Shown here: positions 28,112-63,430 of the stretch, in pieces
Position numbering within the stretch: position 1 is the stretch's first letter
How the letters are laid out: every line of letters starts with the position of its first letter
From: Zygnema cylindricum
Lineage: Eukaryota > Streptophyta > Zygnematophyceae > Zygnematales > Zygnemataceae
Assembly: GCA_037447655.1 (NCBI GenBank)
Contig: JBBHKE010001642.1
Coordinates: 80,576-144,575, forward strand
DNA: 64,000 nucleotides
Direction: 5' to 3'
Notes under the pieces: generated by a model
Told to the model about the DNA's origin: nothing
Databases searched by the model: none
The model's input: the letters and a program-made list of their open reading frames with translations, nothing else
Made by a program: the position numbers and the translations under genes

Positions 28112-28126
28112 CTCTTTCTCCTCATT

Positions 28127-33631: not shown

Positions 33632-33636
33632 ATCAT

Positions 33637-35893: not shown

Positions 35894-35929
35894 TTTATTT
35901 ACCCAAGATCTTCGGGACCTTTTCTACCT

Positions 35930-37047
35930 GTACGGACATCAGCATACGGTGGAGGAGGTACACGGAACTGGAACAAATCAAGGGATTTCTTGAACTGAAC
36001 AGAACGCACTTTATTTTGCGCCTAACGGAGGCCGAAAAGCCAAGTTATTCCGCTTCAAAGATCTCAGTTATGTTACATGCAGCCAGTTGCCACTTGACCT
36101 TTTGGGGGTCACATTGTGGAACGCCACGTAACTCTTCGGATAGTCATTCAGATTTGGCTGTCTTATGTCAGTAGGAATTAAGCTCAGGTTCAACTGACAT
36201 TTTGTCCATTAATTAGATCAAGTCAAAATCTGGCGTTTAGGCGTCATTTTCAGTACTTTCTCTTATTGAAGTGGAACAAACTTTGACTTTCAGTCAGAAA
36301 TCTAGCCATGATTGGAAGCACAACTTTTTGCCTTAAGTGTAGTACAGCTTAATTTGTCTTTTGTCAGTTCGATAGCATTTGCTTCCCGCTGATTGGTTCC
36401 TTGGATTGCTTTGACTTTTTGGATCGGAAGTGGACAAACTTGGTTGTATAAGGCGCTTAGAGCGGAAGGAGACAGGTTGCTTTTCAGTACTGTCTCCTGT
36501 GAAAAACCTCAGAGAAATTCCAAACAAACCTTCTTTTGGAGAATCTTTGTTGTGCTTGATTGCTTGACTCTATTGCCATCTTGGTTTGGATTTTTCTTGT
36601 TTGGAGATCGTAGTTCGGGCGGGTAGTTGGCACTATCAATCCTTTTGGGCGATCTTGACTTTTTGCTATTGAAACCGAGAAGAGTCCAGTCGATTTCGAT
36701 CTGCGGAAACCGAGTGGTGAAGGTGAATCGTACTGGTCTTCGGTGCCACAAGGAGATATTTCATCTTCCCTTGGTGTCATCTTGGCTTTTTAGGGTATGT
36801 GAGCTTGCTTTGCCATAATTCTTCATTCTATCTTTTATTCCATTTTCTGGGGCAAGGTGATATTGTTAAATCTGAAACAGCCAATCATTTCTATTTTTAT
36901 TATTTTTGCGTGGAAGTTCATTTGTCCTCCGCCGGTAGTTATCTTTGGATTTTGCTGTGTTCCCTCCGGAACCGGTTTCTTGCATCTTGGGTACTAAAAC
37001 AGTGGGTTCTAAGGGTACAAAAGTTAGACTTCCAATGGATCAGCACA
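35930..37047 (+). repeat. 5' LTR of gypsy G1 (5' end missing or diverged)
   Basis: Aligns in order with the 3' LTR of G2 (about 62160-63060): shared ACGCACTTTA, GCGGAAGGAGACAGGTTGCTTTT and GGGGCAAGGTGATATTGTT landmarks. It ends CAGCACA at 37047, followed by GTACTGAAAAGCAAC, a sequence also following the LTR relic at 38733. The first about 300 bp of the LTR are not recognisable. Confidence 0.7.
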
Positions 37048-37178
37048 GTACTGAAAAGCAACACCCTGTCTACTTAAATTAGAGGAGATAGGAGCTTTGA
37101 CTCAGGAATCTCTCTTAGTGGAAGGGGGTTAGATTTTATCAATTTATATTACTCCCTCTTTCTAGTGGTTACCATCCG

Positions 37179-38685
37179 ATGGGAGGAGGAAAGGCTCACG
37201 ATAGGGGAACCTCCAGCCTTACGCTTAAGGAGAGAGGTAGGCAAGAGGGGTCTGCCCCTGGGGGGGGGTTCTCCCACGCCTGAGGAAGTAGTCCTAGGAG
37301 CTCCCATGTTTGAATCTCCACCCAAAGGATAGGCCGAGTTAAACGTTCCTCCGACTCCTCTTGTCTTCACCCGTGAAGAGTTCCCTTCTCTAGTCAAAGT
37401 GGCCCGGGCCGAAGCCGAAGAGAAAAGGAAAATGTCTCCCACTTCGCAACAGGATCGGTTGGCCCATAGAGAGCCAGTCCGCGGGCATCTGCCGGAGGTT
37501 GGATTCCATACCCGATCCAAGATTCCCAGGGCCGAGATTCTAATAGACCCGGGGGTGTTAGACGATCCCCGTCATCCTGGTTGTAAGGAACTTCTTGCTC
37601 TACATGATCTCCATGAGCTGAAGGTGAAAAAGAAGTTGGTTCAACGAGTGCCCCGAGCCGATTGAGCTCGGGTGGTTAGACCCGTGGGAGGAGTGGTGGA
37701 AATTTTGAGCATTTCCTCTGAAAGTAGCTCATCACCATCTGAACAGAGTCTACCTCGGAGAGCCCCGAAATTCTGTGCGCCGCAATCTTTCTTTTAGGAC
37801 TCATTTACCAACAGGCTAGCATGAGGATGTACCACCTCTCGATCTCGTTCCGGAGAAGGGAGCAGCTAGAAGGACTTTCGAGATCCTTGGAAGGGGAAGC
37901 GGATCGACCACCGAGATAGTAAAGGTAGATTTGCTACTATTTCCAAGGAGAAACCATTCCCTGCACTCGCTCCCGCCTCGAGTGGAGGGCTTACCTCAGC
38001 AGTCCCAAAAGGTTCACCTCGTGTGGAGCTTCGGCAATCCAAACCAACCGATTTCGAGGTTCTAGTTGTAGACCGGGGGAGATCCTTTCCCAAGGATCCC
38101 ACAGATCGCCCTTACGGGGGGCTATGGCGACCCAAACCTACCGATCCGGAGGCGCCTGGTTTAGAGGTGGGAGATCTAACTAGGGTTTTGAGTAGAGCTC
38201 AGGATTTGGTAAAGAAGTTGAGATCTCAAGGTGGGGCTACAACGGGGGCCGGACCTGTCGAAATAGATTGGGAGGCTTTAGAGGAAGAAAGGAAGAAAGT
38301 ATGGGAACAAGAACTGCGGCTGATAAGGGACGCACGGCTTAGGTCCGGAGGACTTTTTAGGGAGCAGGTCTCTACTTCTCCAATACTTAATCCTTACATC
38401 CTGGAGCCAACAAGGGAAGCCGTTCTAGTTCCCAAGTCTCACCCTAAGAAGACTCCATCAGGGAATCCACAAGAACTTCCTCTTCGGCGGGGAGGGGGAG
38501 GAACAATAGGACCTAATGAAAAGGGTTTGGGTGCAGATCTACCTTCAGAGTTCGCTTTTATCTCTCGGGAGCATCCTACCTTTGTATCTGTGGAGATCTC
38601 CACTGCCTTGGAGGCTTTGGTGGAATTACAGCCAGACGAAAGGATCCACATCCGGACGACCCTCCGTCCCTCCCCATTCTTTTGA
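37179..38685 (+). pseudogene. gypsy Gag N-terminal region, first copy
   Basis: Begins MGGG like the second copy at 38831. It contains HTRSKIPRAEILIDPG, ELLALHDLHELKVKK and LVQRVPRAD, followed by a TGA where the second copy has Arg. Frame 38023-38685 continues with PTDPEAPGLEVGDL and IDWEALEEERKKVWEQEL. It parallels 38831-40300 throughout, so this is a duplicated gag N-terminus. The region is not a recognised domain; LALHxxHELKVKK is a good family marker. Confidence 0.6.
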
Positions 38686-38733
38686 GAGTGGTCTGGAGCG
38701 TAGCACTTAGTGAGCTTTCGGCAGAAAAGCACA
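38651..38733 (+). repeat. relic of gypsy LTR 3' end between gag copies
   Basis: From the shared string CGGACGACCCTCCGT to GAAAAGCACA, this matches the last about 80 bp of the LTR (63130-63210). The gag frame thus runs straight into an LTR end, a recombination or template-switch junction at a 15-bp shared sequence. Confidence 0.65.
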
Positions 38734-38830
38734 GTACTGAAAAAGCAACTGTCCCCTTTGTTTTAAAGGGATAGCTGTTTAGGGTGTTGGACTTTATCAG
38801 AGAGATCTAGCTCATCTGCTCCTGTAAGTC

Positions 38831-40018
38831 ATGGGCGGAGGAGAAGCTCAGGATAGGGATCCTTCTGGTGTCGGTCCGAAAGAACAGGAGAGACAAGAAG
38901 CGGTTGCACAAGAGGAAGAGTCACAGGTGCCTGAGGAAGCAGTCCGTTTCACCTCAGCTTTGAACATTGAACAGTTTTTTAAGGGAATGATGCCCGAGCC
39001 GGTTGTGGTTGAGACTCCTTTAAGGCAGACAGAGAGGCAACCCTCACCTCCACCTCCTCCGGTCTTTTCCCCTAAAAACTTTCCGACGTTTTCCGAGGCC
39101 GCTAGGGCTAGGGCTACGGAGCAGGTAGAACGACAGACTTTTGCTCCCCGATCTCGTAGGAAGGGTTTGGCTCATAAGGAAGCGGTCCCAGGGCATCCTT
39201 CCGAGGTGGTACATTACACGAGATCCAAGGCTTCGATAGTGGAGACATACATGGACCCGAAACTGTTGTCAGATCTTAACAGACCTGGTCGTAAGGAGAT
39301 TCTAGCCCTTCACAATATCCATGAGTTGAAGGTTAAGAAGGAGCTGGTGCAGCGGGTTGCCAGAAGCGACCGAGCTCGGATTATACGACCAGTGGGAGGA
39401 GTATTGGAGATCTTGAGTAGCTCTTCCGAGAGTGGCTCTCCCATCTCAGCCCGAAAGCAACCGAAGATGCCGTCTACTACCCGACAACAGTCCACCGTAT
39501 CTCAAGAAGCTGCCACCAGTAGACCTTCTAGGGGCAGAGCAACTTCTCGGGGCCGGACCAGGGAGGGGAGTAGCAAGCGGAAGTTACCCGAGCCTCAGAG
39601 AGATTTCCGGTTCAACCATCGGGACAGCAAAGGTCGATTTGCTCCCCTAGTCAAAAAAGAGCCGTTCTTTCCTTCTGCCTCAATTTCCCCAAGTTCTATG
39701 TCTCCTTCCGAACCAGTTGTCCGACCATCCGAAGGACTATGGCATTCAAGACCTACAGACCCCGAAGTACCGAGTTTGGGGATTGCAGATCTCTCGGGTG
39801 TGGTGAGCAGCACCCAGAAATTGGTTGAGGTCCTGCGATCGCAGGATAAAGCTACGGCGGGGGTTGGACCCGTTGCAATAGATTGGGATGCTCTTGAAGA
39901 GGAAAGGAAGAGAGCATTGGAACAAGAGTTGATCCTGATACGGGAAGCTAGACGGAGAGCAAGGGGAATCCTTAGTGGACAGGTAGCTCCTCCTCGTAGA
40001 ACAGGTCCCACGACGTAA
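38831..40018 (+). CDS. gypsy Gag N-terminal ORF, second copy
   Basis: 395-residue intact frame starting MGGGEAQDRDPSG. Low-complexity acidic and proline-rich stretches (PSPPPPPVFSP) surround a conserved segment (HYTRSKASIVETYMDPKL, ILALHNIHELKVKKEL, RIIRPVGGVLEILSSSSES), then basic RGRATSRGRTREGSSKRK and a C-terminal charged helix (IDWDALEEERKRALEQEL). No known enzyme. It precedes the capsid/zinc-knuckle part and is out of frame with it, so it is the decayed front part of one Gag-Pol. Function beyond particle assembly is unknown. Confidence 0.6.
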   Translation: MGGGEAQDRDPSGVGPKEQERQEAVAQEEESQVPEEAVRFTSALNIEQFFKGMMPEPVVVETPLRQTERQPSPPPPPVFSPKNFPTFSEAARARATEQVERQTFAPRSRRKGLAHKEAVPGHPSEVVHYTRSKASIVETYMDPKLLSDLNRPGRKEILALHNIHELKVKKELVQRVARSDRARIIRPVGGVLEILSSSSESGSPISARKQPKMPSTTRQQSTVSQEAATSRPSRGRATSRGRTREGSSKRKLPEPQRDFRFNHRDSKGRFAPLVKKEPFFPSASISPSSMSPSEPVVRPSEGLWHSRPTDPEVPSLGIADLSGVVSSTQKLVEVLRSQDKATAGVGPVAIDWDALEEERKRALEQELILIREARRRARGILSGQVAPPRRTGPTT

Positions 40019-40021
40019 GTA

Positions 40022-41854
40022 CAACCTCTCGATCAGGCAACTCCTCGTGTCACGCTAAATCCCAGGACTTCACCAGCACCGAGACCAAAATCTCCTCTTC
40101 AGCGGGAAGGGGAGGAAACAACAGGGCCTAACAAAGAGAGGTTGGGTGCAGATTTACCGAGTAAACCGGTAGCCGCGGCTACTACTCTCCTTACAGTTGT
40201 CTCGGTTGCGGGATCTTCGACCGTAGAGGCAGTGGTGAAGCTACAACCCGACCGGAGACAACACATTTCCCTCGGACTGACCACTCCTCCTCCATCATCT
40301 ATTCACTCCTCTTCCCCTTCGCCATCCATCTCTCCCGCGGGAACAGTCCGTGGGTCACCAGGCCCACTTCGCCTACCCCCCAAACTCGACGTCTACTCGC
40401 CTCCTCACAGACGGTCGCCATCCTCTAGTTCCGCAACTCCTCCTCCCGAAGATTCCTAGAGACGACCTAGGAAGCAGACTCCTTTCAGGAAACAATCACC
40501 TTCTTCTCAAGCTTCCAGTCATCCCCCTCTCCACCGCCATCTATTCCCCAAGGACCTCGTCCTCGTCTTCACATACCATCGGAAGAGGAAGTTCTCCGGA
40601 AAGCACGCGCTTCTCTTCGATATAGGGGGGCAGACGACTATCCCACTTTTTCAAGAGCCAGACCTTCCTCATTGGGGGGGGGGGACCACTGCTCGAACAA
40701 CCGCCCTTCCTATTGGAGGAGGGACCGGTTCAAACCTCGAGGTAGCAGATCCGGGAGCAATCTCACCGGCTCAATTTGTCAGCCCAACCGGACAGGCATC
40801 ACCAAGGTTCCCCAATCTTACCGAAGAAGAAAGAAGAATGGGAGACATACGGATCCTCACCGGGGACAACTCCAGAATTGCTTTTTCTGATTTTGAACTG
40901 CTGTGGAAATCCTTCACGCAGTTTGAAATCAACAAATACAGGGGGGGGGGCATCCCAGCAGACTTTGAAACCACTCTGTTCCCAATGATGGTCAATTATC
41001 TAGCCGAAGGAGCTTTGGCCGACTATAAAGAGCGTCAGCCTTTGTTGATGGCTCCAATCATCAAAATATCGGATCCGGTTCTGGACGCCGAGACTCTTCA
41101 GGCAGAGGTCGACCAAGCTGTTGTCGCCGTAGCTCCTCTTACCCCCACTTTCACCATGGACATGAAACTGCAGGCCTAGGGCAGGGCCTAAGTCAACCAC
41201 TTGCAAGCTGTACAGACCGCTGAGGCAGCCACCCGGATGGTCGCCAACCCGAATCCCTGCAGCACTCTTCTGGACGCATGGAGATTCCTTTACACAGAAA
41301 GGAACGAAACTGCAATTAAGGAGTTTACAGACTTCCGTTGTTTGGAGAATGAAACACCTCAGACGCTGTTCAATCGCCTCTCTAGCCCCTGCCAGAAGAC
41401 CAAATTGTCCACCATTGATACCCCGGCTATGGCAACTAAGTATTATGTCGCTGTTCGAAATTCGTTCGGGCCAACAGGATAGGCAGCTCTCGACAATTGG
41501 AGTGCTAGTCAGGCCATTCACGATCGGAATCCCACGGCTCTGGAAATCTCATTGGCCACCATGAAGTTGGATGATCATTTTGTGCACAGCGAAGTAAACG
41601 AAAAGGCTGTTACCGCGAAATCGAGAGCCAACTTTGCAGGTTTCGCCGGGGAATCATCTCTCAGCCAAGAGGAACAAACCGAACTTCAAGCTTTGCGGAA
41701 GCTTAAGGGGAAACAAGAGTCTGACAGAAAACCCGAACCTGCAAAGGGCGCGGACGAAAGAGTTTACCTTTACAATTGCCTGAACTGCAACCAAACCGGT
41801 CACGGGTGGAAACGATGTCCAAGCAGAACTCACTATCAAGCAAAAGGAGTTTGA
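40022..41854 (+). pseudogene. gypsy Gag capsid and first zinc knuckle
   Basis: A proline/serine linker (40142-40625) is followed by capsid-like text: RILTGDNSRIAFSDFELLWK at about 40850, LLDAWRFLYTERNETAIKEF near 41265, and ETPQTLFNRLSSP near 41350. The nucleocapsid has the CCHC knuckle CLNCNQTGHGWKRC (41777-41818). Several stops (TAG near 41178, near 41480; TGA near 41852) interrupt it. Retrotransposon Gag packages element RNA. Confidence 0.7.
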
Positions 41855-42077
41855 GAAAGAACGTGCAGAACGTACCCGAAAGCAGCAGGAACGCAAACAA
41901 GGAGGAAGAGAAGGAGGAGACCGCACGCCAGTCAACAAGGACACTTATAAACCTACCCCACGGTTTGAAACCGCTAAGATGTCTCAATCCTAGTTGAGAC
42001 AAATTAGACTTCCTAAATTTGATGATGCTCAGATCTCAAACGAGCTAAGGGGAAAGTATACTACTGAGGGGTCAAAA

Positions 42078-42119
42078 TGTGAGGCCTGTGGGTTCATGGG
42101 CCATAAAGAAGGACAATGT
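42078..42119 (+). pseudogene. second Gag zinc knuckle
   Basis: CEACGFMGHKEGQC (C-x2-C-x4-H-x4-C) about 260 bp after the first knuckle, in decayed frame. Two knuckles are unusual for plant-type gypsy Gag, which commonly has one. Confidence 0.7.
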
Positions 42120-42156
42120 TTCCGAAAAAATTGAGTCCCAAAGGAGATGATGCAAT

Positions 42157-42963
42157 ATGCCCGTTAATCCCCTTCCGTTACAACTTTTGTATCCTTGGGG
42201 ACGTCGATCTACAAATGAACTAGGACCCAGCAGACTGACTCCGGAACATATCATTCAGCAGCAGAGCACTCAATTGACCGTCTTGGTAGCAGAGCTGGCT
42301 TCTCTCCGCCTGCGATCACCTGCCCGCGCACATCATTCTCTTACGCCTACTCAAAAACTGCAAAAACAGAAACAAGAATTGTTACAAAGGCTAGCGGAGC
42401 TCGAGCAGCAGACTATGGTGGGTGACGATGATGATGAACTAATGGGTTGGGATTTGGAGCCGCCGAAGGCTTATCATGCCCGGACATTTCTGTCCGCGGC
42501 CTGGAACGTGGGTTTAGGGGACAGTCACAGGCAACTTCGCTCTACAACGTCCTCCCAGAGAAAGGACAAACAGCCAATGGAACAAAAGGACCACAGACGC
42601 AAAGCCACGGGTCCCTTATCCTTTACACCGCGAGCAGTCCTTCTAAACAATGACATTGGGCTGGGCCTGAAACCGACTCATCCGCCTCCCCCGGCTCCAA
42701 AGAAACTTCCTCCCGGTTTCGAAAATTACAAGAAAACACAGCTAGAACAAAATACTGTAACTACGGAAACAGATCAGGAATGGTTCGAAAGATACTTGGC
42801 CGAGAGAAAACCCACGGATCCGCCAGTGACACCTCCGACAGCAAATTCTGACGTAGGAAGTGAGGAAGAAGGGGTGGGGGACAGGAGAAATGGGAGGACG
42901 AGGACTTACCAATATCATCGCCCAAAGCTCACCCTTCTTCCTCCAAACCGGCAGTCATGCTAG
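42157..42963 (+). CDS. gypsy Gag-protease linker ORF
   Basis: 268-residue open frame between the second zinc knuckle and protease. It is rich in Gln, Leu and charged residues with a predicted coiled coil (LQKQKQELLQRLAELEQQ near 42355-42410) and a proline-rich middle (PPPPAPKKLPPGFENYKK). No recognised domain. It probably belongs to the same polyprotein, shifted in frame. Confidence 0.45.
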   Translation: MPVNPLPLQLLYPWGRRSTNELGPSRLTPEHIIQQQSTQLTVLVAELASLRLRSPARAHHSLTPTQKLQKQKQELLQRLAELEQQTMVGDDDDELMGWDLEPPKAYHARTFLSAAWNVGLGDSHRQLRSTTSSQRKDKQPMEQKDHRRKATGPLSFTPRAVLLNNDIGLGLKPTHPPPPAPKKLPPGFENYKKTQLEQNTVTTETDQEWFERYLAERKPTDPPVTPPTANSDVGSEEEGVGDRRNGRTRTYQYHRPKLTLLPPNRQSC

Positions 42964-43088
42964 TACGGCACTTGATGCCCTACGCACTGACGCACGTCAA
43001 GACGCTAACTTCCTCCCACAATCTGCCCGAAGAAACCCTCATTTAGGCACTGGGGGAAAAGATTCACACCAGGAGAAAAAAGGTCGAG

Positions 43089-43601
43089 TTGGCAGAACCA
43101 CCCAATACAGTCTTCATGTCGGCGGAACCAAAAACTTATATGGCGGATAGAGATTATAAGGCCCTGTCAGTGGCACTTATTCTAAACAGAACGGGAAATT
43201 TTAAACTTAATGGATACGGCGCGTACCAGGATGCAGTCGTGGATATAGGAGCTCTCCCTAATCTCATCACCACCTTCGCATTACAACAAATGCCCGAGGA
43301 TCTCCGTCCGGAAATAAGCCCCAGTGACATATGCCTGAGCACGGTCAGTAATGGGAGCCAACCAGTATATGGTATCATAAAATCCATGGAAATCGAATTT
43401 GCGGATGACGCAGGTCACCACGTTCAAATACAGCTCCCCTTCCTACTGGTGGAAGGTAAACAATTCGAAATTTTGCTCGAAATGGCAACGTGGACAAGAT
43501 TGAACATGGAATTGAGCGTATGGAAGGAACAAATAAAACTCTCAGACCCGGAGGATCCAAAGGGCACCAAAGTGGTGGTCCCCTTGGATTTATGGAACTG
43601 A
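43089..43601 (+). pseudogene. gypsy aspartic protease
   Basis: Frame with the retropepsin flap order: AVVDIGALPNLIT (catalytic Asp in D-x-G-A at about 43242), then YGIIKSMEIEFADDAGHHV, LPFLLVEGKQFEILLEMATW and the family tail KVVVPLDLWN. It cleaves the Gag-Pol polyprotein. Length is typical. Flanked upstream by the linker ORF and downstream, after about 280 bp, by the methyltransferase. The same segment recurs in G2 (55059-55426). Confidence 0.7.
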
Positions 43602-43880
43602 GGAAAAACAGCTGTTCCGGTTTCTCGATGTTATCCCGTATACTCTACCTCAACACCTTCGGAGCTGTTCGACTACTCCATCAATATTGCCAATTCCATC
43701 TAGCAATTCCCTATTTCCAAGCGGTGGGAAAAGGAGTACCAAAACCGAATAAGACAGATGACCACACTTCGGCGGGAAGTGGACAGGAGCTTTGCTGCAA
43801 TATTATCCGGAACAACAAAGGTTCCACGGTCAGAACTTCCAACAGCTCCTAACAAAGGGAAAGAATTCAATCGACAGGTG

Positions 43881-44880
43881 GTGTCACTGGAGGTCCCGCC
43901 CTCAGGACTCAGGATTTTATCACTATTCTCCGGAATTAGCTCTGATCTGGAGGCCGTCCTAAAAGTTGGATACCAAGTATAAGCGTACTCAGCAGTCGAG
44001 ATTGATCAGGACGCCCGTGCAGTCAGTGAGTACCGACTGCAACAGCTGCACCAACTTTACCCGCAGTAACTCCCGGTGTACGCCATGTCTAACTCTCACC
44101 GCACGCTTCCCCAAAATGTGGACAATATCACCAATTCACAATTGGAATAGCTTGGAAGGGTGGATCTGGTAATCGCTGGATGGCCGTGCCAGGGGTATTC
44201 GTTAGCAGGACAGGGCAGGGGACACCAAGATGTCCGCAGCAGAACATTCTTCCAGATGGCGCGACTAATAACAAAGATACAGGAACGCCAGGACACGCCA
44301 GTGCGGTACGTCTTGGAAAATGTTCACCCCAGAGATGATAAAAGAAAGCAGGTGGTCAACAGCTGGAACGAAGTGACCAAGGTTCTGGGGACTCCAATAG
44401 TTTTTGACGCAGCTCAGGTCGGATCAAGAGCCTACCGAGTACAGGCTTATTGGACCAACTTGGCTCCTCTTAACATCCTCCAAAAGATGTTGAAAACCCC
44501 GGTTCTGGATCCCAACATAACAGTTCAACATATTCTCAGACTAGGGCGCATGGCCACTCCAGTGACCAAAGCTGACAAAGCACCCTTTTTCTGTTGCAAT
44601 AAACCCGGATATCCACGGAAGGCCCTACCAACCTTGGTATCTTTTCCTAATAGCCATGCTTACCGGAGAGGCGCACCCGGGTTGATATTTGACAGTACAG
44701 CAAATACTTGGACGGCACTAAGCATTGAGGAACGAGAAAAAGCAATGGGATTTCGAGAAGCAACCACAGCAGCACCCGGGGTCTCAGCCTCTAGAGGTGC
44801 AGCTTCATCGGGCAAAGTATGGATTTGAATGCAATTTCTTGGGTGCTGCGACATTCTTTGGCATTCTCTAGCCTACAGTC
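43881..44880 (+). pseudogene. C5-cytosine DNA methyltransferase domain of gypsy polyprotein (G1)
   Basis: Motif I: LRILSLFSGISSDLEAVL (about 43908), followed by YSAVEIDQDARAV. Motif IV: VDLVIAGWPCQGYSLAGQ with the catalytic Pro-Cys (about 44160-44215). Motif VI: RYVLENVHP (about 44304). Motif VIII: VGSRAYRVQAYWTN (about 44417). Near the end, EEREKAMGF and, after a frameshift, FECNFLGAATFFGIL resemble motifs IX-X. Size (about 330 aa) fits a bare catalytic domain without UBA, BAH or PWWP parts. Three in-frame stops (43980, about 44068, about 44151) and a late shift inactivate it. It lies between protease and RT, so it was part of the polyprotein. GWPCQGYS differs from the usual DNMT1/CMT and DRM motif IV wording. 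Confidence 0.9.
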
Positions 44881-45210
44881 TCCAACGTCACGGGGAGCAT
44901 ACCTTCAAGCTCCACAGTTGTTGGCCATGCAAGCTACTCTGAGCTTGAGGGGGTGAGAGAGGAAAGAAAAAGAAACTTCACACAATTTCATTCAGATAGC
45001 ACACTAAAACAAGGAGTTTCCTCAATGGGGGGGAGAGGGCTCATATCACGGCAACTCAAGGGAAGTTGTCAGCAGCAGCGTTTTTACAACCAAGAAAGGG
45101 ACGAACCCACAGGTAGAGCCGAAATTCGACATCTCCCTATGGGGTAGGTCAGCGGAAGCATTAGCGGCAGTGGAACCCGGAAGATGGAATAGACCCTAGG
45201 GGATTAGCTA
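44881..45210 (+). other. decayed linker between methyltransferase and RT
   Basis: No domain recognised; scattered coding-like text in several frames (for example EGPALQDI near 45230). Confidence 0.4.
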
Positions 45211-45216
45211 GACCCA

Positions 45217-45996: not shown

Positions 45997-46011
45997 TGAC
46001 GCTCTTCCTCA

Positions 46012-53598: not shown

Positions 53599-54654
53599 TG
53601 AAACTCTGAGACCTCCATAAGTCCTCAGAGTGGACAGCTTCCAAGAAGCCTCTAGGATAACTCTGACCCCTTTGTGTTTCAGCAAAAACAACTGCCACAC
53701 TGGCAAACAAAAACTCTGACCAATTGCACCCCTGTGAATGGAAGACTCCCCTAAGTCGATAGCAAAAAGAGTCTCTGAATTTTCTCCCATGAGCAGTAAG
53801 TTATGGAGGGTCAAAGTTGACCTTATATACAGAAACTCTCTGGGAGAGAGGGTTCTGTCTTCTAATTTTTCTAAGTCCTATCTCTCTGACAGACTCTATC
53901 TACTAATGTACGGAGCCAATCATATTATAGTTCCGTACACAAAATTACATCAGTCGGTGTACTTTCTGTACGGACACTGTACGACATGGCCTAAATGTTG
54001 ACACGTGGTATGTCCGGATTCGCTCCCTTTATCCTCGGAGATGCCGCGATCGAATGTCATTCCCCCACGTGTAATCCAATGTGGCGATGACCACAAACCG
54101 CCGAAATCTTCTTCCGCGATCTCGGCGTTAATTCTGGCCGTCCGATTAAATTCACATTTAATCGTAGCTGTAATAAATACATGCGCGGTATTTGTTTCAC
54201 TAAAGAAATAAATGCGCGGTATTGGTTTCTTATCTGTACCGAAATCCGTACTTTTACATTTACTGGATATATGTATCCCGTAAGCAGTTATAGTTAAATG
54301 AACTATTCTACGTATTAATATTTAAATAATTATCAAACCCAATAATACGTAACACTACTTCTAGAGTTAACGGCTTAGGCTAACGGCTACCGACAGTCTG
54401 CCGGCCGGTAGGTTCCAGGTTAAAATCCTGTCGCCTGCATATATCTTTTGGTAAATAAACCCCTAACTAAAATATATTTTCCCGTAAACATCTGTATAGC
54501 CTAGGTAGCCATGGCTCTAGCTCCTTATCCAATTTCTCAGTGACTGCGACAAGTTTGAGAAGTTGGGGAGAGAAGTTAGAGGTAGACTGCCTCGGCTTCT
54601 TTCTTATTTCTATTCAGACCTAGAAAATACTTTAAAAGACCATTAATTTCTACA
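53599..54654 (-). repeat. second LTR of family E
   Basis: 1056 bp, homologous to 48971-50026. TATA-like TATATAAGG (53822-53830, minus) next to palindrome CTCTCTGGGAGAG (53836-53848). It acts as 5' LTR for the element at left and 3' LTR for the fragment at right. Confidence 0.9.
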
Positions 54655-54967
54655 CTCCCCTTATTTTCTAGTCAATCTTTTATTTCAGACCACAGTTTTC
54701 CATGCAGAAAATTAGCTTAGGGAAAGGCACAGGTTTTGGTCATCATATCTGCTACCATCTCACTATCTGGTCGGTACTCTAAAACTGTTATTTTTGTTTT
54801 CTACTTTCTCTCTAACAAAGCTAAGTCTAATGGCCATGTGTTTAGCTTTAAAATGATGTTTAGGATTGGCAGAAATAGCGATTGCTGCCAAATTATCACA
54901 AAATATTTTCTGCACACCACTCTTAAGGTGACCAAGCTCACCAAGCAAAGACTTGACCCACATCATT
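54655..54967 (-). pseudogene. RNase H end of another family E copy
   Basis: After the purine tract (54655-54668) the minus strand encodes MWVKSLLGELGHLKSGVQK, CDNLAAIAISANPKHHFKAK and RLSFVREKVENK, homologous to 50041-50330. It is truncated at 54967 where gypsy G2 LTR sequence begins. Confidence 0.8.
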
Positions 54968-55058
54968 CTGTGTAGCTCTAGCAGAGGGGTACATTGTGGA
55001 ACGACACGCATCTTTTAAGATTGTCCCGTATATCTTGCTGTTAGCTGTCAGTAGGATG
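54968..55058 (+). repeat. gypsy LTR fragment joined to protease
   Basis: CTGTGTAGCTCTAGCAGAGG to GTCAGTAGGATGT matches 62251-62340 of the 3' LTR; the next base enters the protease frame. Internal deletion junction. Confidence 0.7.
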
Positions 55059-55426
55059 TAGGCACGGTCAGTAGTGGGAGCCAACCAGTATATGGTATCA
55101 TAAAAGCCATGGAAATCAAATTTGCGGATGACGCAGGCCAGCACGTTCAAATTGAGCTTCCCTTCTTAGTGGTGGAAGGTAAACAATTCGAAATTTTGCT
55201 GGGAATGGCAACGTGGACAAGATTGAACATGGAATTGAGCTTATGGAGGGAACAAATCACAATCTCAGATCGGGAGGATCCGGAGGGCACCAAAGTGGTG
55301 GTCCCCTTGGATTTATGGATTCGAGGAAAAACACTTGTTCCGGTGTCTAGATGCTATCCCGTATACTCTACCTCAACCCCTTCTGACCTTTTCGACTACT
55401 CCACCGATATCGCCAATTCCATCTAG
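55059..55426 (+). pseudogene. gypsy protease C-terminal part (G2)
   Basis: MEIKFADDAGQHVQIELPFL and VEGKQFEILLGMATWTRLN match G1 closely. The catalytic Asp is missing through the deletion. Continues as DLWIRGKTLVPVSRCYPVYS, showing the native sequence after the point where G1 has a stop. Confidence 0.7.
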
Positions 55427-55599
55427 CAATTCCCTATTTCCAAGCGGTGGGAAAGGGAGTACCAAAATCAATTACGACAGATGGCCACACTTCGGCGAAA
55501 AGTGGACAGGAAGCTTTGCTGTAATATCATCCGGAACAACAAAGGTTCCCTGGTCGGAACTTCCAACAGCTCCTAACAAAGGGGAAGACTTTAATTGAC

Positions 55600-56149
55600 A
55601 TGTGGTGTCACTGGAGGTCCCGCCCTCAGGACTCAGGATTTTATCACTATTTTCCGGCATTAGCTCTGATCTGGAGGCCGTCCTATGAGCTGGATACGAA
55701 GTAGAAGTGTACCCAGCAGTCCACATTGATCCGGACGCCCGTGTTGTCATTGAGTAACAACTGCAACAGCTGCACCAACTTTACCCACAACAACTCACAC
55801 TATACGCCATGTCTAACTCTCACCGCACGCTTCCCCAGAATGTGAACAATATCACCAATTACAATTTGGAAAAGCTTAGAAGGGTGGATCTGGTAATCGC
55901 TGGATGGCCGTGCCAGGGGTATTCGTTAGCAGGACAAGGCAGGGGACACCAAGATGTCCGCAGTAGAACATTCTTCCAATTGACATGACTAACAACAAAG
56001 ATACAGGAACACCATGACACGCCAGTGGGGTACATCTTGGAAAATGTTCACCCCATAGGTGATTAAGGAAAACAAGTGGTCAACAGATGGAACCAAGTGA
56101 CCAAGGTTTTTGGGACTTCAATAGTTTTTGATGCAGCTCAGGTCAGATC
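55600..56149 (+). pseudogene. C5-cytosine DNA methyltransferase fragment (G2)
   Basis: Motif I (ILSLFSGISSDLEAVL, near 55632), motif IV (VDLVIAGWPCQGYSLAGQ, about 55887-55937) and motif VI (YILENVHP, about 56031) are recognisable. Stops at about 55686, 55755, 55986 and 56063 differ in position from those in G1, so the two copies decayed independently. Interrupted at 56150 by the A' LTR within FDAAQV; the C-terminal half is absent after the insertion. Confidence 0.88.
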
Positions 56150-56340
56150 TGTTGATATTTGAGTATTTTCTAGGTCTGTATTAGGATAGAAAAAGAGCTG
56201 AGGCGGTCTGCCTCTAACTCCCCTTATCCAAGCCCCCACACTTGCTGTAGTCACTGAAGGCTGGAAAGGGAGATAGAGCCATGGCTACCTAAACTCTCTA
56301 GAGAAGATAGGAAGTGAATTAGGTAGATTTAACAAAATGT

Positions 56341-56387
56341 ACTTGACGGACCCAGGTATTGAACCTGGAACCTGCCGTCCGTCAAGT
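56341..56387 (+). other. conserved LTR hairpin, T-arm-like
   Basis: ACTTGACGGAC pairs with GTCCGTCAAGT; inside, CCAGG pairs with CCTGG around a 7-base loop, resembling an antisense tRNA T-arm (reverse strand GGTTCAATACC, B-box-like). Repeated at 59407-59453; an analogous GCCGGC-stemmed version occurs in LTR E. Confidence 0.6.
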
Positions 56388-56929
56388 CGGCGTAGCCGTT
56401 ACCTTTAACCGTTAAGTCTAGGACAAGTGTTACATTACATTAGGTTTCATTACAATATAAATTGTTACACGTAGATTAAATCGTTTAACGGGAAATAGAT
56501 TCTTAGTACATAGATACCGTTTCATATAGTACGGAGTACAGTACGGATACGAAATACATACCGCGCAGTTTGTTTGACGCCGGAAAGAATACCGCGCAAG
56601 TATTTATGACGGCCACGATTGAAATCCAAATTGATCAGACGGCCGCGAAGGATGCCGAGATCGCGGAGTACAATTTTGGCGGTTTGCGATCACCGCCACA
56701 TCGAGTGACACATGGCAAAACTACATTGGATTGCGGCAACTCCGAGGATTACGGAAATGAATCCGGATATGACACGTCTAAACATTTTGGCCATGTCGTA
56801 CAATGGCCGTACATAAAGTACACCGGCACATGTACTTTTCTGTACGACACAATGTTTTAATTGGTGCCGTACTTCAGTAGATAGAGTTTTAGAGGGAGAT
56901 AGGACTTAGAAAAATTGGAAGATAGGACC

Positions 56930-56957
56930 CTCTCTCTAAGAGAGCACCTTGTATAAA
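56930..56957 (+). promoter_or_regulatory. LTR core promoter of family A'
   Basis: CTCTCTCTAAGAGAG palindrome followed within about 6 bp by TATAAAT. The 3' LTR has the same at about 59996-60023. Confidence 0.55.
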
Positions 56958-57326
56958 TGCTAACTTTGGGCAGCCATAACTATCAATTTACTTGACCAGT
57001 TTTAGTGATTATTTTTGCTGCAAACTCAGGGGAGTCTAGGCTACAAAGGGGTGTAGTTGGTCAAACTTTTTGTCTGCCAAGGTGGCTTCATTTCTAAGGA
57101 AAAGTCAAAGTGGGTGAATGTATCCAAATCTCATATTCTAACTTTGCATTCTGTGGTGAAACTGAGCACACAGAAAGTGTTATTTCACAGGGGTGAATCT
57201 ATATTGGGGATGTGACTGTCAAGGGGTCAGTCAATTGGGTTTATATCAACTTGGAGTCGGCACTATCTAGATTAGCTTCTTTTGGATCTGCATACTCTGA
57301 GGGCCAATAGAGGTCTCAGAGTTTCA

Positions 57327-57341
57327 TGTTATGGGCCCACC
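57327..57341 (+). other. primer-binding site containing the gag start codon
   Basis: TGTTATGGGCCCACC directly follows the LTR CA end; 14 of 15 bases complementary to the initiator tRNA-Met anticodon arm. The ATG at 57331, the gag start, is the triplet facing the CAU anticodon. Confidence 0.8.
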
Positions 57342-58905
57342 ATCTAGGGTGCCTATGTTTGATGGAACATGCTTCACTTATTGGGCGTTTACAATGGAGG
57401 GATTGATTTTCGAGAAGCACTTATGGGGAATTGTTGCGGGACAAGTGAGATGTCCGCCACCTGGCTTTGGAGGAACTTACTATCGAGATTCATCTGAGGC
57501 TGCCCAAAATATCAACCGGAGTTCAGATGCAACGGAAGGTGAAGGGGAAAATCTTTTCGTGGATAGGGAAATAGAGGAGAAGGAAAAAGGGACACCTATG
57601 GTGAGGGGAGCTAGGCTCTCAGCTATGGTACCACAAGTAGGGATTAAAATTGAAGAAAATGACAGAAAAATATGGGAATACAAAAACACTATAGCAAAAC
57701 ATCTCATACTTAGATATGTGTCTAAGTCGATAACTATCACTCTTTTAAGTCTAACCAAGTCTTCAGAGATATGGGAAGCACTAATTCAGATTTATAAGAG
57801 TGAGACTATTCAGAGGCTGCAATTAGTAAAACAGGAAATAGAGGCCTACGTTTATAAAGGTGGTAGCATGATAGAGTTTTGCAATGATATTGCTGCGTTA
57901 TATGTTGAGCTTACTAGTGCGGGATATATAGAATCTGAGGAGAGTAAGATTTATACACTACTTATGAAACTCCCAGATGAGTACGAAAACATCATTTGTC
58001 GTATGCAGGCATTGGATGGCTCCTCATGGACTTGGAGCTTTACCATGGGGATAATTCTTGTAAGGGAAAGCACTTTGGAGCTTCGTAAGGGAAGGGACAG
58101 GTTCAATGCATTTTCAGCTGGTGGTGATTGGCGGAAGCGTGATGAGAGGAACGGCGGTGATGAGCGGAAGCGTGATGAGAGGAACGGTGGTGACGAGCGA
58201 AAGCGTGATGAGAGGAAGAAAGACAAAGGTAAACCTTATCGGAACTTTGGTGGAAAAAGAGGGAGAGGAAATGACACGGGAGCTTTGAAAAAATGGGTTT
58301 GCTTCTTTTGTAGGGAACCGGGTCATTATATGGAGGAATGCCCTTGTTTGGAAAAACTTAGAAGTTGGAATGTGGATGAGGAGGACGAAGAGGAAGAGGA
58401 GAAAGAGGATGAAGAAAAATTGGAGCATCTTCACATCGGTAGAATGGGGAAGAGAGAAAAGTACAGAGAAACTGCTCGAAGGCAACAGTGTGCTTTTGGA
58501 GGTATTAGGGAAGTAAAGAGAGAGGAGGTACTTGAGGATGACGAGGAGTGTAAAGTGTATGACTTAGAAATGAGAAAGTCAGATCTAGGATCCATAAGTG
58601 AAAACGGGAAAGATAAAATTAATGAGGATAATTTTATAGGTATTTTGGAACTAGAAAACTGGTCGAAAAGGGAGCATACGGATTTCGAGGAAAGGGGAGA
58701 AGTGAATCTAGAAGGGGTTTTTAAAGATAAGAGAGAAGAGGAATATTTAATGAAAGGTTTAGGGGAGGAGAAACACTTATTGGGAATAAATTTAGAAAGA
58801 GTGGATAGAAATCAATGGGAGAGAGTGAGGAAAGTTCAATTTTTGCGGGTAATGGGTTTGACATCACTAAAGAGAGTGATGGTATTTATGAAGGTGTGCC
58901 TGTAA
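57331..58905 (+). CDS. gag: Gag protein of family A'
   Basis: 524 residues, starting MGPPSRVPMFDG in the primer site. UBN2-like core (EIWEALIQIYKSETIQRLQL, LLMKLPDEYENIICRMQ), then three tandem KRDERNGGDER repeats, a basic GGKRGRG stretch and the CCHC knuckle CFFCREPGHYMEEC (residues 324-337), followed by an acidic Glu-rich tail. Homologous along its length to family A Gag (879-2879). A late frameshift ends this frame at 58905; the homologous C-terminus continues at 58956-59186. Confidence 0.85.
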   Translation: MGPPSRVPMFDGTCFTYWAFTMEGLIFEKHLWGIVAGQVRCPPPGFGGTYYRDSSEAAQNINRSSDATEGEGENLFVDREIEEKEKGTPMVRGARLSAMVPQVGIKIEENDRKIWEYKNTIAKHLILRYVSKSITITLLSLTKSSEIWEALIQIYKSETIQRLQLVKQEIEAYVYKGGSMIEFCNDIAALYVELTSAGYIESEESKIYTLLMKLPDEYENIICRMQALDGSSWTWSFTMGIILVRESTLELRKGRDRFNAFSAGGDWRKRDERNGGDERKRDERNGGDERKRDERKKDKGKPYRNFGGKRGRGNDTGALKKWVCFFCREPGHYMEECPCLEKLRSWNVDEEDEEEEEKEDEEKLEHLHIGRMGKREKYRETARRQQCAFGGIREVKREEVLEDDEECKVYDLEMRKSDLGSISENGKDKINEDNFIGILELENWSKREHTDFEERGEVNLEGVFKDKREEEYLMKGLGEEKHLLGINLERVDRNQWERVRKVQFLRVMGLTSLKRVMVFMKVCL

Positions 58906-59190
58906 AAGGGTTAGCATGTGGGTGTATGTTGTAGATTGGAGATGGGGCTGGCTGTTTGGATCGCAAGAGGGAAATCGGTTTGTGTGTGGATGAAAGAGTC
59001 ATGAAGTGGATAAAATCTTTTCTCGGATTTATAAAAAGTGGGATGTTAAATAAAATGTGTATTTCAGTTCATTTAATGCACTGTGTTAAATACTTAAGTT
59101 TTATGAAAGGAAAAGGAAAAAGAAAGAAAAAAAAAAAAGGGAAAAAAAGGGGAGGGGGTGTTTATTTACTTGTTTGTGGAAGTTGAAAGA
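58906..59190 (+). pseudogene. frame-shifted C-terminus of A' Gag (RNase H-like remnant)
   Basis: KREIGLCVDERVMKWIKSFLGFIKSGMLNKM matches the C-terminus of family A Gag and, more distantly, the RNase H end of family E (ELMWVKSLLGELGHLKS). A poly-A/lysine run follows at about 59108-59150. Confidence 0.55.
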
Positions 59191-59203
59191 AAAAAAGACT
59201 AGA

Positions 59204-59215
59204 AAATAAGGGGAG
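59204..59215 (+). other. polypurine tract of family A'
   Basis: AAATAAGGGGAG immediately precedes the 3' LTR start TG at 59216. Confidence 0.75.
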
Positions 59216-60393
59216 TGTTGATATTTGAGTATTTTCTATGTTTGTATTAGGATAGAAAAAGAGCTGAGGCGGTCTGCCTCTAACTCCCCTTATCCAAGCC
59301 CCCACACTTGCTGTAGTCACTGAAGGCTGGAAAGGGAGATAGAGCCATGGCTACCTAAACTCTCTAGAGAAGATAGGAAGTGAATTAGGTAGATTTAACA
59401 CAATGTACTTGACGGACCCAGGTATTGAACCTGGAACCTGCCGTCCGTCAAGTCGGCCTAGCCGTTACCTTTAACCGTTAAGTCTAGGACAAGTGTTACA
59501 TTACATTAGGTTTCATTACAATATAAATTGTTACACGTAGATTAAATCGTTTAACGGGAAATAGATTCTTAGTACATAGATACCGTTTCATATAGTACGG
59601 AGTACAGTACGGATACGAAATACATACCGCGCAGTTTGTTTGACGCCGGAAAGAATACCGCGCAAGTATTTATGACGGCCACGATTGAAATCCAAATTGA
59701 TCAGACGGCCGCGAAGGATGCCGAGATCGCGGAGTACAATTTTGGCGGTTTGCGATCACCGCCACATCGAGTGACACATGGCAAAACTACATTGGATTGC
59801 GGCAACTCCGAGGATTACGGAAATGAATCCGGATATGACACGTCTAAACATTTTGGCCATGTCGTACAATGGCCGTACATAAAGTACACCGGCACATGTA
59901 CTTTTCTGTACGACACAATGTTTTAATTGGTGCCGTACTTCAGTAGATAGAGTTTTAGAGGGAGATAGGACTTAGAAAAATTGGAAGATAGGACCCTCTC
60001 TCTAAGAGAGCACCTTGTATAAATGGCTAACTTTTGGCAACCATAACTATCAATTTACTTGACCATTTTCAGTGATTCTTTTTGCTGCGGACGCAGGGGA
60101 GTCCAAGCTACAAAGGGGTGTAGTCGGTCAGTGTTTTTGTTTGCCAGGGTGGCTGCATTTCTAAGTGAAAGTCAAAGTGGGTGAATATGTCCAAATCTCA
60201 TATTCTAACTTTGCATTCTGTGGTGAAACTGAGCACCAAGAAAGTGTTATTTCACAGGGGTGAATCTATATTGGGGTTTTGACTGTCAAGGGGTCAGTCA
60301 CTTGGGTTTATATTAACTTGGAGTCGGCACTATCTAGATTAGTTTCTTTTGGATCTGCATACTCTGAGGGCCAATGGAGGTCTCAGAGTTTGA
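59216..60393 (+). repeat. 3' LTR of family A'
   Basis: 1178 bp, nearly identical to 56150-57326; terminal CA has become GA. Hairpin 59407-59453, TATA about 60017-60023. Confidence 0.92.
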
Positions 60394-60404
60394 GGATCAA
60401 GAGC

Positions 60405-61500
60405 CCACAGAGGCGGCGTACGAATGGGACAGAGGCATTCTTCTTCCAAAATGGGCCGATGGGATGAGGAAAGTGGTTCCTCCTCCGGCAGATCGGGAAA
60501 CACTCATTGTTCGGCTTCACCAGCAATTTTAGCATTTCAGGCAAAAACGGTCAACCTCACTGGTCACAGGGTCGTACACGTGGCATGGGTTGCAGGCCCA
60601 AGTGAATCCTGTGGTGCAAACGTGTCCTTTTATGACCGAGTTAAAGCCGCTTTTGACAAAAAGTGTGGGACGGAACTTCACTCCCTCCACATCCGGAGGA
60701 TGTTTTACAGATGGTCACTAGACTTGCTAGGACCACTTCCCCCTAGTCGGAGGGGAAACGTTTTTGTCCTGGTCATGATTGAGCACTTCTCTAAATGGAT
60801 CAAATTGGTGGTACTTCCTCGGAAAGAGTCCAAAGCAATCGCGGACGCATTCTTGCTGAGAGTGTTGTCTCAATTCGGAGCGCCAGCTAAGGTGCTAACG
60901 GATCAGGGGTTCGAGTTCGCTGGTGAAATCTCTAACCTATTAAAGCAGTGCCTCATAGACCACCGGCTGACGAGCCGAGACCACCCCCAAGCCGAAGGCT
61001 TGGCCGAGAGGTGCGTACTGACAGTGAAGCGGTCAATACGGAAATATGCATTAGAAGAGGATTCGGGGGAATGTGACAGACAGGTGCCTTGGATTGCCAT
61101 TGGATACATGTTCAACCGGCAAGCAACTCTCCACTCCTACAGCCTTTATTTCATTCTCTTTGGTAGACATCCCATCTTACCTGGGGCTGCATCAGCTTAG
61201 GCGGTTGTACTTCCGGAGATGGACAACTGGGGGACTGTCGAAAAACTGATTGCCGACAGGGCCAAGGTATTTCACCGGGAAATACCTCTGGCTATGGAAA
61301 TTTACAAGCTGATCAAAATAGGGACCAGCTTTGGTATTCCCAACGCCGGAGCGGCAATTATGTTCCTCGGCAACGACGATTCATGCCTGGGGATTTTGTG
61401 TATCGCATGCAACAAAAGAATGATATTTTGGACATTTCGGCTGGACGAGAAATTTTGAAGGTAGTGAAGGTTTCAAACAAAGGGGTTCTTTCTTTGGAAG
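60405..61500 (+). pseudogene. gypsy integrase (G2)
   Basis: N-terminal part AAYEWDRGILLPKWADG, zinc-finger region RLHQQF-stop-HFRQKR...YTWHGLQAQVNPVVQTC (last Cys replaced), then in frame 60424-61200 the catalytic core: WSLDLLGPLPPSRRGNVFV (Asp), KVLTDQGFEFAGEI (Asp), HPQAEGLAERCVLTVKR (Glu), all three present. After a stop at 61198 the C-terminal part ends DILDISAGREILKVVKV...GVLSLEG, a GPY/F-like module. It inserts element cDNA into chromatin. Confidence 0.85.
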
Positions 61501-61599
61501 GGAAAGGATGGCCGCAAAAATAAAGAGAATCAGATCAATGTGGACCCTTACCACCTGCGAGGGTTAGAGGACGAACCAACTTTCCACCTCACTTACTTT

Positions 61600-61773
61600 G
61601 CAGACAAAACATCTTGTTCTTCTGCTTGCAATGTGTCTCCCGTACCCGACCTCTTGTTGGTGTGTGAACGTTGTCACTAAGGGTGGCATTACAGCTGCCT
61701 ACAGTTGAATTGGGAGCCCTGCTCTCAACCAACAAATCCGTGGTTCTGTGGGGACTGCGAATTTGGCGGATAA
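61600..61773 (+). pseudogene. PHD finger at the integrase C-terminus
   Basis: Reads CSSACNVSPV...LLLVCERCH-stop-GWHYSCLQL...NPWFCGDC, ending at TAA 61771. Spacing of C-x3-C, C-x2-C, H-x2-C and C-x2-C with GWH and the Trp two residues before the final pair fits the C4HC3 PHD zinc finger. PHD fingers read histone H3 tails in known proteins; here the likely role is steering integration, replacing the chromodomain of chromoviruses. One in-frame TAA (61678) interrupts this copy. It follows the integrase GPY/F-like module by about 45 residues and is the last coding segment before the LTR. Confidence 0.75.
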
Positions 61774-61813
61774 TTTATCTAAACCTCTTTGTTAGTCGGG
61801 ACTAAGAGGGGGG

Positions 61814-63210
61814 GGGATCTTGGGGGGATACAGAGTACATTTTCTTCTTTACTCCATTCCTCATTACACCTATGCATATCCGTGGGGAGGAAGGACAAAG
61901 AAGGGCATGGTCACGGGTCCGGGGAATTATCAGCATTTGGGGTGGATGGCAGGTCTCTCATGCACAACTCATAGGACATCTTACCTTAACCTCACAGTCA
62001 CCACGCACGCTCGACAGCTATCAAGCTCGTGTGCATCTCCGACACATTTGCACTCCCATAAGTTCTTGGGGCCTCGTTCCACCTTGTATGGACTCCAAGG
62101 TACGGAGAAGGGGGGGGGAACAACTCGTCGGATCAAAACTTTGTATTTTTTCCATGGAGCACAACGCACTTTAGTTCACCTTAAACGGAGGTCGGACTAC
62201 GGAGTTAGTCTAGTGCAAAGGTAGCGGCTCCATTACATGGCATCCGTTCTGTGTAGCTCTAACGGAGGGGTACATTGTTGAATAACACGCAGCCTTTAAG
62301 ATTTTCCCGTAGATGTTGTTGTTAGCTGTCAGTAGGATGTTAGTTTGGGTCCAACCGACTGCAGAGCATTTATGACACAGGGTCAAATTTAGGCGTTTAC
62401 GTCAATTCAGGACTTTGTTGCCCACTAGTGTACAATAGGATGATCTGTGGCTGTAATTCCAGCCGGAACCAGTCGCCTAACTTTTTGCTCTGAGTGTTGT
62501 ACAGTCTGTTTTGTCTTATGTCCGTGCGATATCAATTGGTGGCCACTAATTGGCTTTTGGAATTGCTTTGATTTTGGCACTTGCAGTAGGACAAACTTTG
62601 GTTGTATAAGGCACTTGGGGCCGAAGGAGACAGGTTGCTTTTTCAGTATTGTCTCCTGAGAAAACCCCCAGAGAATTAAATCAATTTTTTTGTTGGAGAA
62701 CGTTTGCATTTTGTTGTGGACTTTTTTGCCATCTTTGTTTTGGATTGTCTTTTGTGGAGACCGTAGCACGAGTGGGTAGTTAGCACAATCCTTGCTTTGG
62801 GCGGTTTGTACTTTCGCTGTTTAAAACTAAGAAGAATCTTGTCAAATCCGTACGGTGGAATCGGGAGGGGTGAGGGAGATTCTTACCTGTCTTCGGGGCC
62901 ATTAAGAGATTTTTCTTCTTCTAGGTTTGGTCATCGTTGCACTCCGTGGTATGTGAATTCGCTTCACCATTATCATTTATTTTTATATTTATTTCTATTC
63001 TCTGGGGCAAGGTGATATTGTTTAATCTGAGAGAGCCAATATCAGTTATTTCTATAAATCTGCGTGGGAGTTCTTTGCACACTTTTGTGGTCATCTTTCG
63101 TTTTTGTTAGGAATTCTTGCGGGGCGGATCGGACGACCCTCCGTTCAACCTTATTCTTTGGAGAGTGGTCGAGAGTGTATTACTTAGTGAGCTTCCGGAA
63201 GAAAAGCACA
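61814..63210 (+). repeat. 3' LTR of gypsy G2
   Basis: Follows the purine run CTAAGAGGGGGGGGG (about 61803-61813). It shares landmarks with 35930-37047 and ends GAAAAGCACA at 63210. About 1.4 kb. The exact first base is uncertain because the start does not read TG. Confidence 0.72.
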
Positions 63211-63430
63211 AATCTCAAGGGGGTACAGAGTACTTTTTCTTCTTTACTCCATTCCTCATTACACCTATGCATATCCCTGGGGGGAAAGGACAAAGAAGGG
63301 CATGGTCACGGGTCCGGGGAAACATCAACATTTGGGGTGGATGGCAGGTGTCTCATGCACACCTCATTGGACATCTTGCCTGAACCTCACGCTCACCAGG
63401 CATGCTCGGCAGGCACCTATACCTTCTTGT
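63211..63430 (+). repeat. second, partial gypsy LTR start abutting the LTR end
   Basis: TACAGAGTAC... to about 63420 repeats 61825-62035 (ATTCCTCATTACACCTATGC, GGGCATGGTCACGGGTCCGG). It starts right after the LTR end, an LTR-LTR tandem, and is truncated by an A-type LTR fragment. Confidence 0.7.

Follow-up and report, generated by a model that had tools for sequence, protein, structure and literature searches.

Organization of the retrotransposon copies

The DNA analysed here, referred to as the window, is a stretch of 64,000 nucleotides from contig JBBHKE010001642.1 of Zygnema cylindricum. It carries the remains of a Ty3/gypsy-type retrotransposon, and the joins between these remains, together with intact relatives elsewhere, make it almost certain that a single family is organized as long terminal repeat (LTR), Gag, protease, DNMT3-like DNA methyltransferase (DNMT), reverse transcriptase (RT), RNase H, integrase, PHD finger and LTR. 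Self-comparison of the 64-kb sequence, by which the pieces were delimited, revealed four pieces of one gypsy kind (A, B, C and D), all of them broken. A copia element interrupts a single copy whose two parts are C (54966-56149) and D (60394-63210), listed together as C+D. L029 is a related element from another assembly, described below; ORF2 is its second open reading frame.

36322-38543 (approximate), forward: piece A overall, a 5′ fragment containing stretches similar to LTR and gag
36322-36922, forward: LTR-like stretch of piece A, a second, shorter 5′ fragment before B; 73% to 62479-63076 over 612 columns
37576-38543, forward: gag-like stretches of piece A; three matches, 70-80%, to 39284-40158 of B
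38653-48002, forward: copy B overall, with LTR end, Gag, protease, DNMT, RT, RNase H and integrase start
38653-38733, forward: 5′ LTR end of B; 84% to 63130-63210, where the LTR following the PHD finger ends
38828-41854, forward: Gag region of B in several broken frames; open frames seen by eye, as was a CCHC knuckle near the end, in 41483-41854
43047-43601, forward: protease region of B; VDIGA motif by eye; 90% to C from 43339 onward
43887-44828, forward: DNMT3-like C5-cytosine methyltransferase of B; one frame with three internal stops; motifs I, IV, VI, VIII and IX
45196-46018, forward: first part of the RT of B; RVT_1 at 1.2e-9 in 45433-45834; 34-41% to ORF2 residues 28-308
46009-47088, reverse: lone copia-type LTR splitting the RT of B; 79% to 48968-50032 and 53599-54660
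47070-47936, forward: RT end and RNase H of B; RT_RNaseH at 1.3e-30 in 47214-47936; 50% to ORF2 residues 301-610
47939-48002, forward: integrase start of B, where the copy is cut off; 92% to 60412-60475
54966-55059, forward: 5′-side LTR piece of C+D, joined to the protease by a deletion; 88% to 62247-62340
55062-56149, forward: protease and first half of the DNMT (to motif VIII) of C+D; 90% to 43339-44425 of B; PF00145 at 9.1e-9 in 55758-55988
56150-60393, forward: copia element nested in C+D; LTRs 97.1% identical; target duplication 56145-56149 / 60394-60398
60394-60405, forward: last 12 nt of the DNMT of C+D, beyond the copia element; 12/12 identical to 44421-44432 of B
60412-61197, forward: integrase N-terminal part and catalytic core of C+D; rve at 1.5e-11 in 60394-61200; matches ORF2 residues 590-660 and 664-1034
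61201-61614, forward: integrase C-terminal part of C+D, within the single-frame match of 60634-61758 to ORF2 residues 664-1034
61615-61758, forward: PHD finger of C+D; PF00628 at 23.4 bits, E 6.2e-5; C4HC3 ligands complete; one in-frame stop
61824-63210, forward: 3′ LTR of C+D; 61824-62017 is 91% to 63219-63412; parts of its interior and its end have matches in A, B and C
63219-63412, forward: second LTR start in tandem; 91% to 61824-62017

The Ty3/gypsy order of protease, RT, RNase H and DDE integrase was recovered from Pfam and from the alignment with L029. Gag and protease gave no Pfam match in the window, and their assignment relies on visually recognized motifs and on the collinear arrangement of L029. 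Pieces of LTR were found 5′ of gag or protease and 3′ of the PHD finger, two whole LTRs being present in no window copy, and a G-rich purine tract, recognized by eye, precedes the 3′ LTR of C+D. No primer-binding site was recognized in the window with the patterns tried, and an Rfam scan of the window returned no match. The tyrosine recombinase that is the hallmark of DIRS elements is absent from the Pfam matches of the window and L029, in which rve and H2C2 integrase domains are present instead. As the 73% match of its LTR to that of D shows, piece A is a more distant copy or subfamily.

The original prediction, made from the letters of the window, described one insertion running from Gag to the integrase start and including a DNMT. 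Pfam located the DNMT, RT and RNase H where it had placed them, and L029 is collinear with the copy up to 48002. Copy B does hold the domains listed, but the insertion as drawn is a composite, with piece A before B and the lone copia-type LTR inside the RT.

Joining of B, C and D into one family

The copia element is flanked by AGATC (56145-56149) and GGATC (60394-60398), a 5-bp duplication with four of five bases kept, and the uninterrupted copy B reads GGATC at the equivalent site (44421-44425). The seven bases that follow GGATC in B are also present in D, giving the 12/12 match. The copia element was thus inserted into the DNMT gene, and therefore the integrase and PHD finger beyond it belong to the same copy as C. 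Directly after these 12 nt an internal deletion has removed the rest of the DNMT, the RT and the RNase H, so that D resumes at the integrase start; relative to B the deletion measures about 3.5 kb, or about 2.4 kb without the lone LTR of B. A second insertion, joining a DNMT to the integrase-PHD end, had also been predicted, and the target duplication and the DNMT sequence continuing past it bear this out, with the qualification that the DNMT of this copy stops at motif VIII.

In the self-comparison, the protease and DNMT sequences of B and C agree at 90% over 1089 bp, and B and D overlap in the first 64 bp of the integrase (92%, E 1.6e-19), resemblances that go beyond chance. DNMT and PHD finger are placed in one family because three independent links agree: the copia target duplication, the B/D overlap and the common LTR pieces.

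Relatives outside the window

Public genome contigs were scanned with an alignment of the integrase-PHD region, which gave one locus of 31 pattern matches. This locus, L029, is CADCWO010000201.1, a contig of 9285 bp assigned to a cyanobacterial metagenome-assembled genome (MAG); the ends of the contig share a 127-nt repeat, as in a circular assembly. Its first frame (1162 residues on the contig, the start lying beyond the circle join) encodes Gag, protease and DNMT, with CCHC knuckles seen by eye, a protease at 20.5 bits (cut-off 24.3) and a DNMT at 45.9 bits. The second frame (1047 residues) encodes RT, RNase H, H2C2, rve and PHD (39.9 bits). L029 is a eukaryotic-type element, and its cyanobacterial label is likely due to misbinning. 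Protein P0196, one of the relatives treated below, is filed under a Minisyncoccia MAG and is most likely misbinned too.

In tblastn the L029 proteins are collinear with B, C and D. The DNMT aligns to 43896-44786 and 55620-56150, the RT to 45196-46018, the RNase H up to the integrase start to 47070-48002, and the integrase up to the PHD finger to 60413-61758.

A protein search with the L029 DNMT, in which 8000 candidates were scored, led to 52 proteins, of which Marchantia polymorpha contributed nine, Closterium two and Calypogeia one. Eleven of the 52 combine DNMT, integrase, integrase C-terminus and PHD finger in one protein, and the PHD finger is present in all 11 relatives whose integrase C-terminus is present; the remaining 41 stop short of a full integrase and are uninformative on the PHD finger. 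The order RT, RNase H, DNMT, integrase, PHD occurs in four (P0192, P0196, P0200 and P0205), five begin at or near the DNMT, which is followed directly by the integrase (P0195, P0201, P0204, P0208 and P0210), and in P0206 and P0207 the DNMT precedes the RT. In the liverworts Marchantia and Calypogeia, DNMT and PHD finger were seen on separate database proteins. Residues 1669-1724 of P0196, behind its PHD finger, resemble a Tudor domain of the PTM/DIR17 type (E 0.002, below cut-off), possibly a second reader.

The window DNMT is 34-42% identical to those of L029 and the polyproteins, which are thus regarded as a related family and not as the same one. A search with the window DNMT gave 40 relatives at E <= 0.001, the best at 45% identity, and the window integrase gave 170, with at least 13 among the 120 listed carrying both rve and PHD, two of them from Calypogeia fissa. 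Scanning IMG/VR with the DNMT alignment returned 28 loci (28-46% in the best segment), and the integrase-PHD and polyprotein alignments returned no loci there.

The methyltransferase and the PHD finger

Pfam DNA_methylase (PF00145) matches copy B at 44151-44828 (1.6e-10), and the DNMT of B is 42% identical to that of L029 over 298 columns. Motifs I, IV with the catalytic cysteine, VI and VIII are present in the window and in L029, both of which retain the PCQ form and the ENV motif; the cysteine is also kept in all 11 polyproteins with DNMT and PHD. The nearest solved structures to the DNMT are DNMT3A/3B (1.7e-8), followed by HaeIII and HhaI. By these motifs and nearest solved relatives, the window methyltransferase is a predicted C5-cytosine enzyme of the DNMT3 branch.

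The possibility that the group with the DNMT before the integrase had lost its catalytic motif was considered and ruled out, since the alignment shows the cysteine kept and the proline replaced by glutamate. The resulting ECQ or ECK, unusual among enzymes of this class, is found in P0025, P0189, P0192, P0194-P0196, P0200, P0201, P0204-P0206 and P0208-P0210.

The PHD finger of the window, read with X at its one in-frame stop, falls just under the Pfam cut-off of 24 bits, and has all eight zinc ligands, the first pair spaced C-x3-C. All eight are found in 12 of 12 DNMT-bearing rows and in 19 of 24 full-length integrase-PHD rows overall. Among the best 60 of 88 solved matches to the L029 PHD finger, the nearest are CHD4, PHF12, Cph2, UHRF1, KMT2D, DPF2, KAT6A, PHF21A and KDM5. 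Many PHD fingers of that set bind the histone H3 tail when its lysine 4 is unmodified. Readers of trimethylated lysine 4 carry a tryptophan two positions ahead of the histidine, and this residue is missing in the PHD finger of this element. The domain is similar to readers of the unmodified H3 tail and looks able to read histones. A domain search found no chromodomain in ORF2 of L029 or in the 11 polyproteins, the PHD finger standing in its place.

Constraint and decay

Conservation was measured in two sets, L029 with nine close relatives and L029 with eight wider relatives, drawn from the 52 matches. Identity in the close set is 0.82 for the DNMT, 0.83 for the protease and 0.61-0.68 for Gag and spacers; the values in the wider set are 0.60, 0.59 and 0.35-0.53. 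The spacers beside the DNMT fall to 0.61-0.68 in the close and 0.35-0.44 in the wider set. The DNMT is therefore as conserved as the protease, and more so than Gag and the spacers. For the PHD finger, identity over 25 rows is 0.45, against 0.43-0.50 for the integrase and 0.17 for the tail behind the PHD finger. Distances of DNMT and integrase are correlated (r 0.85 over 13 elements, and r 0.79 over 12 when a near-copy is dropped), the window being represented by the DNMT of B and the integrase of D, and the permutations ignoring relatedness.

The window copies themselves are dead. In-frame stops number three in the DNMT of B and four in that of C, none common to both, and the integrase-PHD frame of D has six, the terminal one included. 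The comparison of B with C mostly records decay since insertion.

Proposed role and alternative explanations

Judging from its domains, the element may both select chromatin and mark DNA. We propose that the PHD finger at the C-terminus of the integrase would probably bind the H3 tail, most likely in the form with unmodified lysine 4, and so tether the integration complex to silent chromatin. For the DNMT, made next to Gag and protease, we lean slightly towards an enzyme that would ride in the particle and introduce 5-methylcytosine into the cDNA of the element or into its new insertion; localization to the particle is favoured because the DNMT of L029 is fused to Gag and protease. Methylation of the element's cDNA or new insertion follows what the text of de Mendoza and colleagues proposes for DIRS elements (PMC5890265). 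The operation of both in one cycle, with the reader on the integrase and the writer in the particle, is put forward tentatively, at less than even chances.

The ADD domain of DNMT3A is a PHD-like reader of unmodified H3K4, in parallel to the present element. The lineage might even have rebuilt its own DNMT3-like reader-writer, in which the PHD finger would steer the integrase to silent chromatin and the DNMT would disguise the cDNA beforehand as silenced host DNA; this wider proposal, in which the pairing would be old, is more doubtful again. The pairing is called old because relatives with the DNMT before the RT or before the integrase always show a PHD finger where the integrase end is seen.

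A different origin of the window pattern would be two families, a gypsy element with a DNMT and no PHD finger and another with a PHD finger and no DNMT, merged by nesting or by a fusing deletion. It would agree with the absence of any window copy holding all domains, a caveat that the original prediction had correctly made, and with a deletion in C+D that falls exactly between DNMT and integrase. The copia target duplication, however, makes C+D one copy, B joins a DNMT to an integrase start 92% identical to that of D, LTR pieces are common to both ends, and both domains are found in the open frames of L029 and in the 11 polyproteins, so that an intact element exists outside the window. We regard the merging of two families as extremely improbable. 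It had been named beforehand as the outcome that would refute a single gypsy family with both domains; the shared LTRs, the B/D overlap and the target duplication instead uphold that family.

Either domain could also be cargo, captured from a host and without a role in the life cycle, as the dead window copies, the absence of any sign of selection in the comparison of B with C, and the relatives without full PHD ligands would allow. This is hard to reconcile with a DNMT that matches the protease in conservation in two sets while its flanking spacers lie lower, with a PHD finger that equals the integrase and far exceeds the tail, and with the retention of the motif cysteine, and we consider it quite improbable. 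A DNMT that silences neighbours or competing elements, or serves as a DNA- or RNA-binding domain, instead of acting on its own cDNA, is unlikely, though less so than cargo. The replaced proline, seen in 10 of 11 polyproteins, suggests that the chemistry has changed in some members of the family, but PCQ and the ENV motif are retained in the window and in L029, and the fusion to Gag and protease in L029 favours the particle. Overall, one family with DNMT and PHD finger, together with a reader and writer mechanism, is probably the best explanation.

Several observations weigh against this explanation. No window copy is intact, and only 11 of the 48 codons changed between B and C are synonymous, against 29% expected under neutrality, which gives no sign of purifying selection. 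The glutamate in motif IV (ECQ or ECK in 10 of 11 polyproteins) could impair catalysis. The Pfam DNMT cut-off is passed by only one of the 11 polyproteins (P0196), the other ten DNMTs resting on similarity to that of L029 (E 8.8e-28 to 6.1e-58) and on motifs; the PHD scores of P0206 and P0207 are under the cut-off, and one or two PHD ligands are missing in 5 of 24 full-length integrase-PHD rows. In the DNMT tree (72 rows), rows with a protease-DNMT arrangement do not form one clade, and the window DNMT, from copy B, is on a long branch beside P0197 (98/87) and groups only loosely with that of L029. In the integrase tree (47 rows), the group with the DNMT before the integrase has support of 52/84 and the window sequence, from D, is again on a long branch. 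Finally, the DNMT of KnitGypsy, a known gypsy element, showed no activity in yeast, a result that its authors call inconclusive in their text (PMC5890265).

Comparison with known elements

DNMT-bearing gypsy elements are already known, and the PHD finger alongside the DNMT is the new part, as far as the open-access literature search goes. In that search no paper reporting PHD and DNMT in one retroelement was recognized, subscription papers being mostly outside its scope; the original prediction had likewise known of no such element. The text of de Mendoza et al. 2018 describes KnitGypsy-Dnmt3 of Klebsormidium nitens, a gypsy element whose DNMT3-related domain is under purifying selection (PMC5890265). 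It shares with the present family a DNMT3-related domain in a Ty3/gypsy LTR element. That text, however, places its DNMT in the Pol frame, whereas the L029 DNMT is in the Gag-protease frame, and reports it with DIRS-like repeats. In the window, LTR starts stand in tandem (61824-62017 and 63219-63412) behind the PHD finger, a terminal structure of note in view of those repeats. The term PHD is absent from the main text on KnitGypsy-Dnmt3, a statement that leaves aside its figures and supplement, where a PHD finger is possible (PMC5890265). No K. nitens protein was among the named matches of the searches with the window DNMT, the window integrase or the L029 DNMT.

SymbioDIRS-Dnmt3, according to the same text, is also a retroelement with a DNMT3-type domain, active on CG in yeast, but it is a DIRS element with a tyrosine recombinase, unlike the window element and L029, which have a DDE-type integrase (PMC5890265). 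The parts consulted on chromoviruses and brown-algal gypsy elements (PMC6317226, PMC12477816) report a chromodomain or Tudor domain behind the integrase. These elements are likewise fused to a reader, whereas the reader here is a PHD finger and is accompanied by a DNMT. Ginger1-9_HM has a gypsy-like integrase followed by a PHD finger, as here, but is a cut-and-paste DNA transposon with Ulp1, and neither RT nor DNMT is reported for it in the portion of its description consulted (PMC2836005). CR1-like LINEs with a PHD finger, known to us by title, also join a retroelement and a PHD finger, but are non-LTR elements without integrase.

Retroelements with chromatin readers and retroelements with a DNMT were known separately before. 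One element with both makes it testable whether a transposon can choose its chromatin and also set the epigenetic state of the copy it inserts. Relatives of the DNMT or of the integrase-PHD part occur in Marchantia polymorpha and Calypogeia fissa, and the question may be accessible in a model plant.

Other features of the window

Two further repeats were observed. At positions 12450-13700 a 24-base unit is repeated in a long array, with both strands open and a G+C content of about 60%, and at 25386-33646 a unit is present in three direct copies spaced by about 3.6 kb, which agree at 85-99% over the listed parts.

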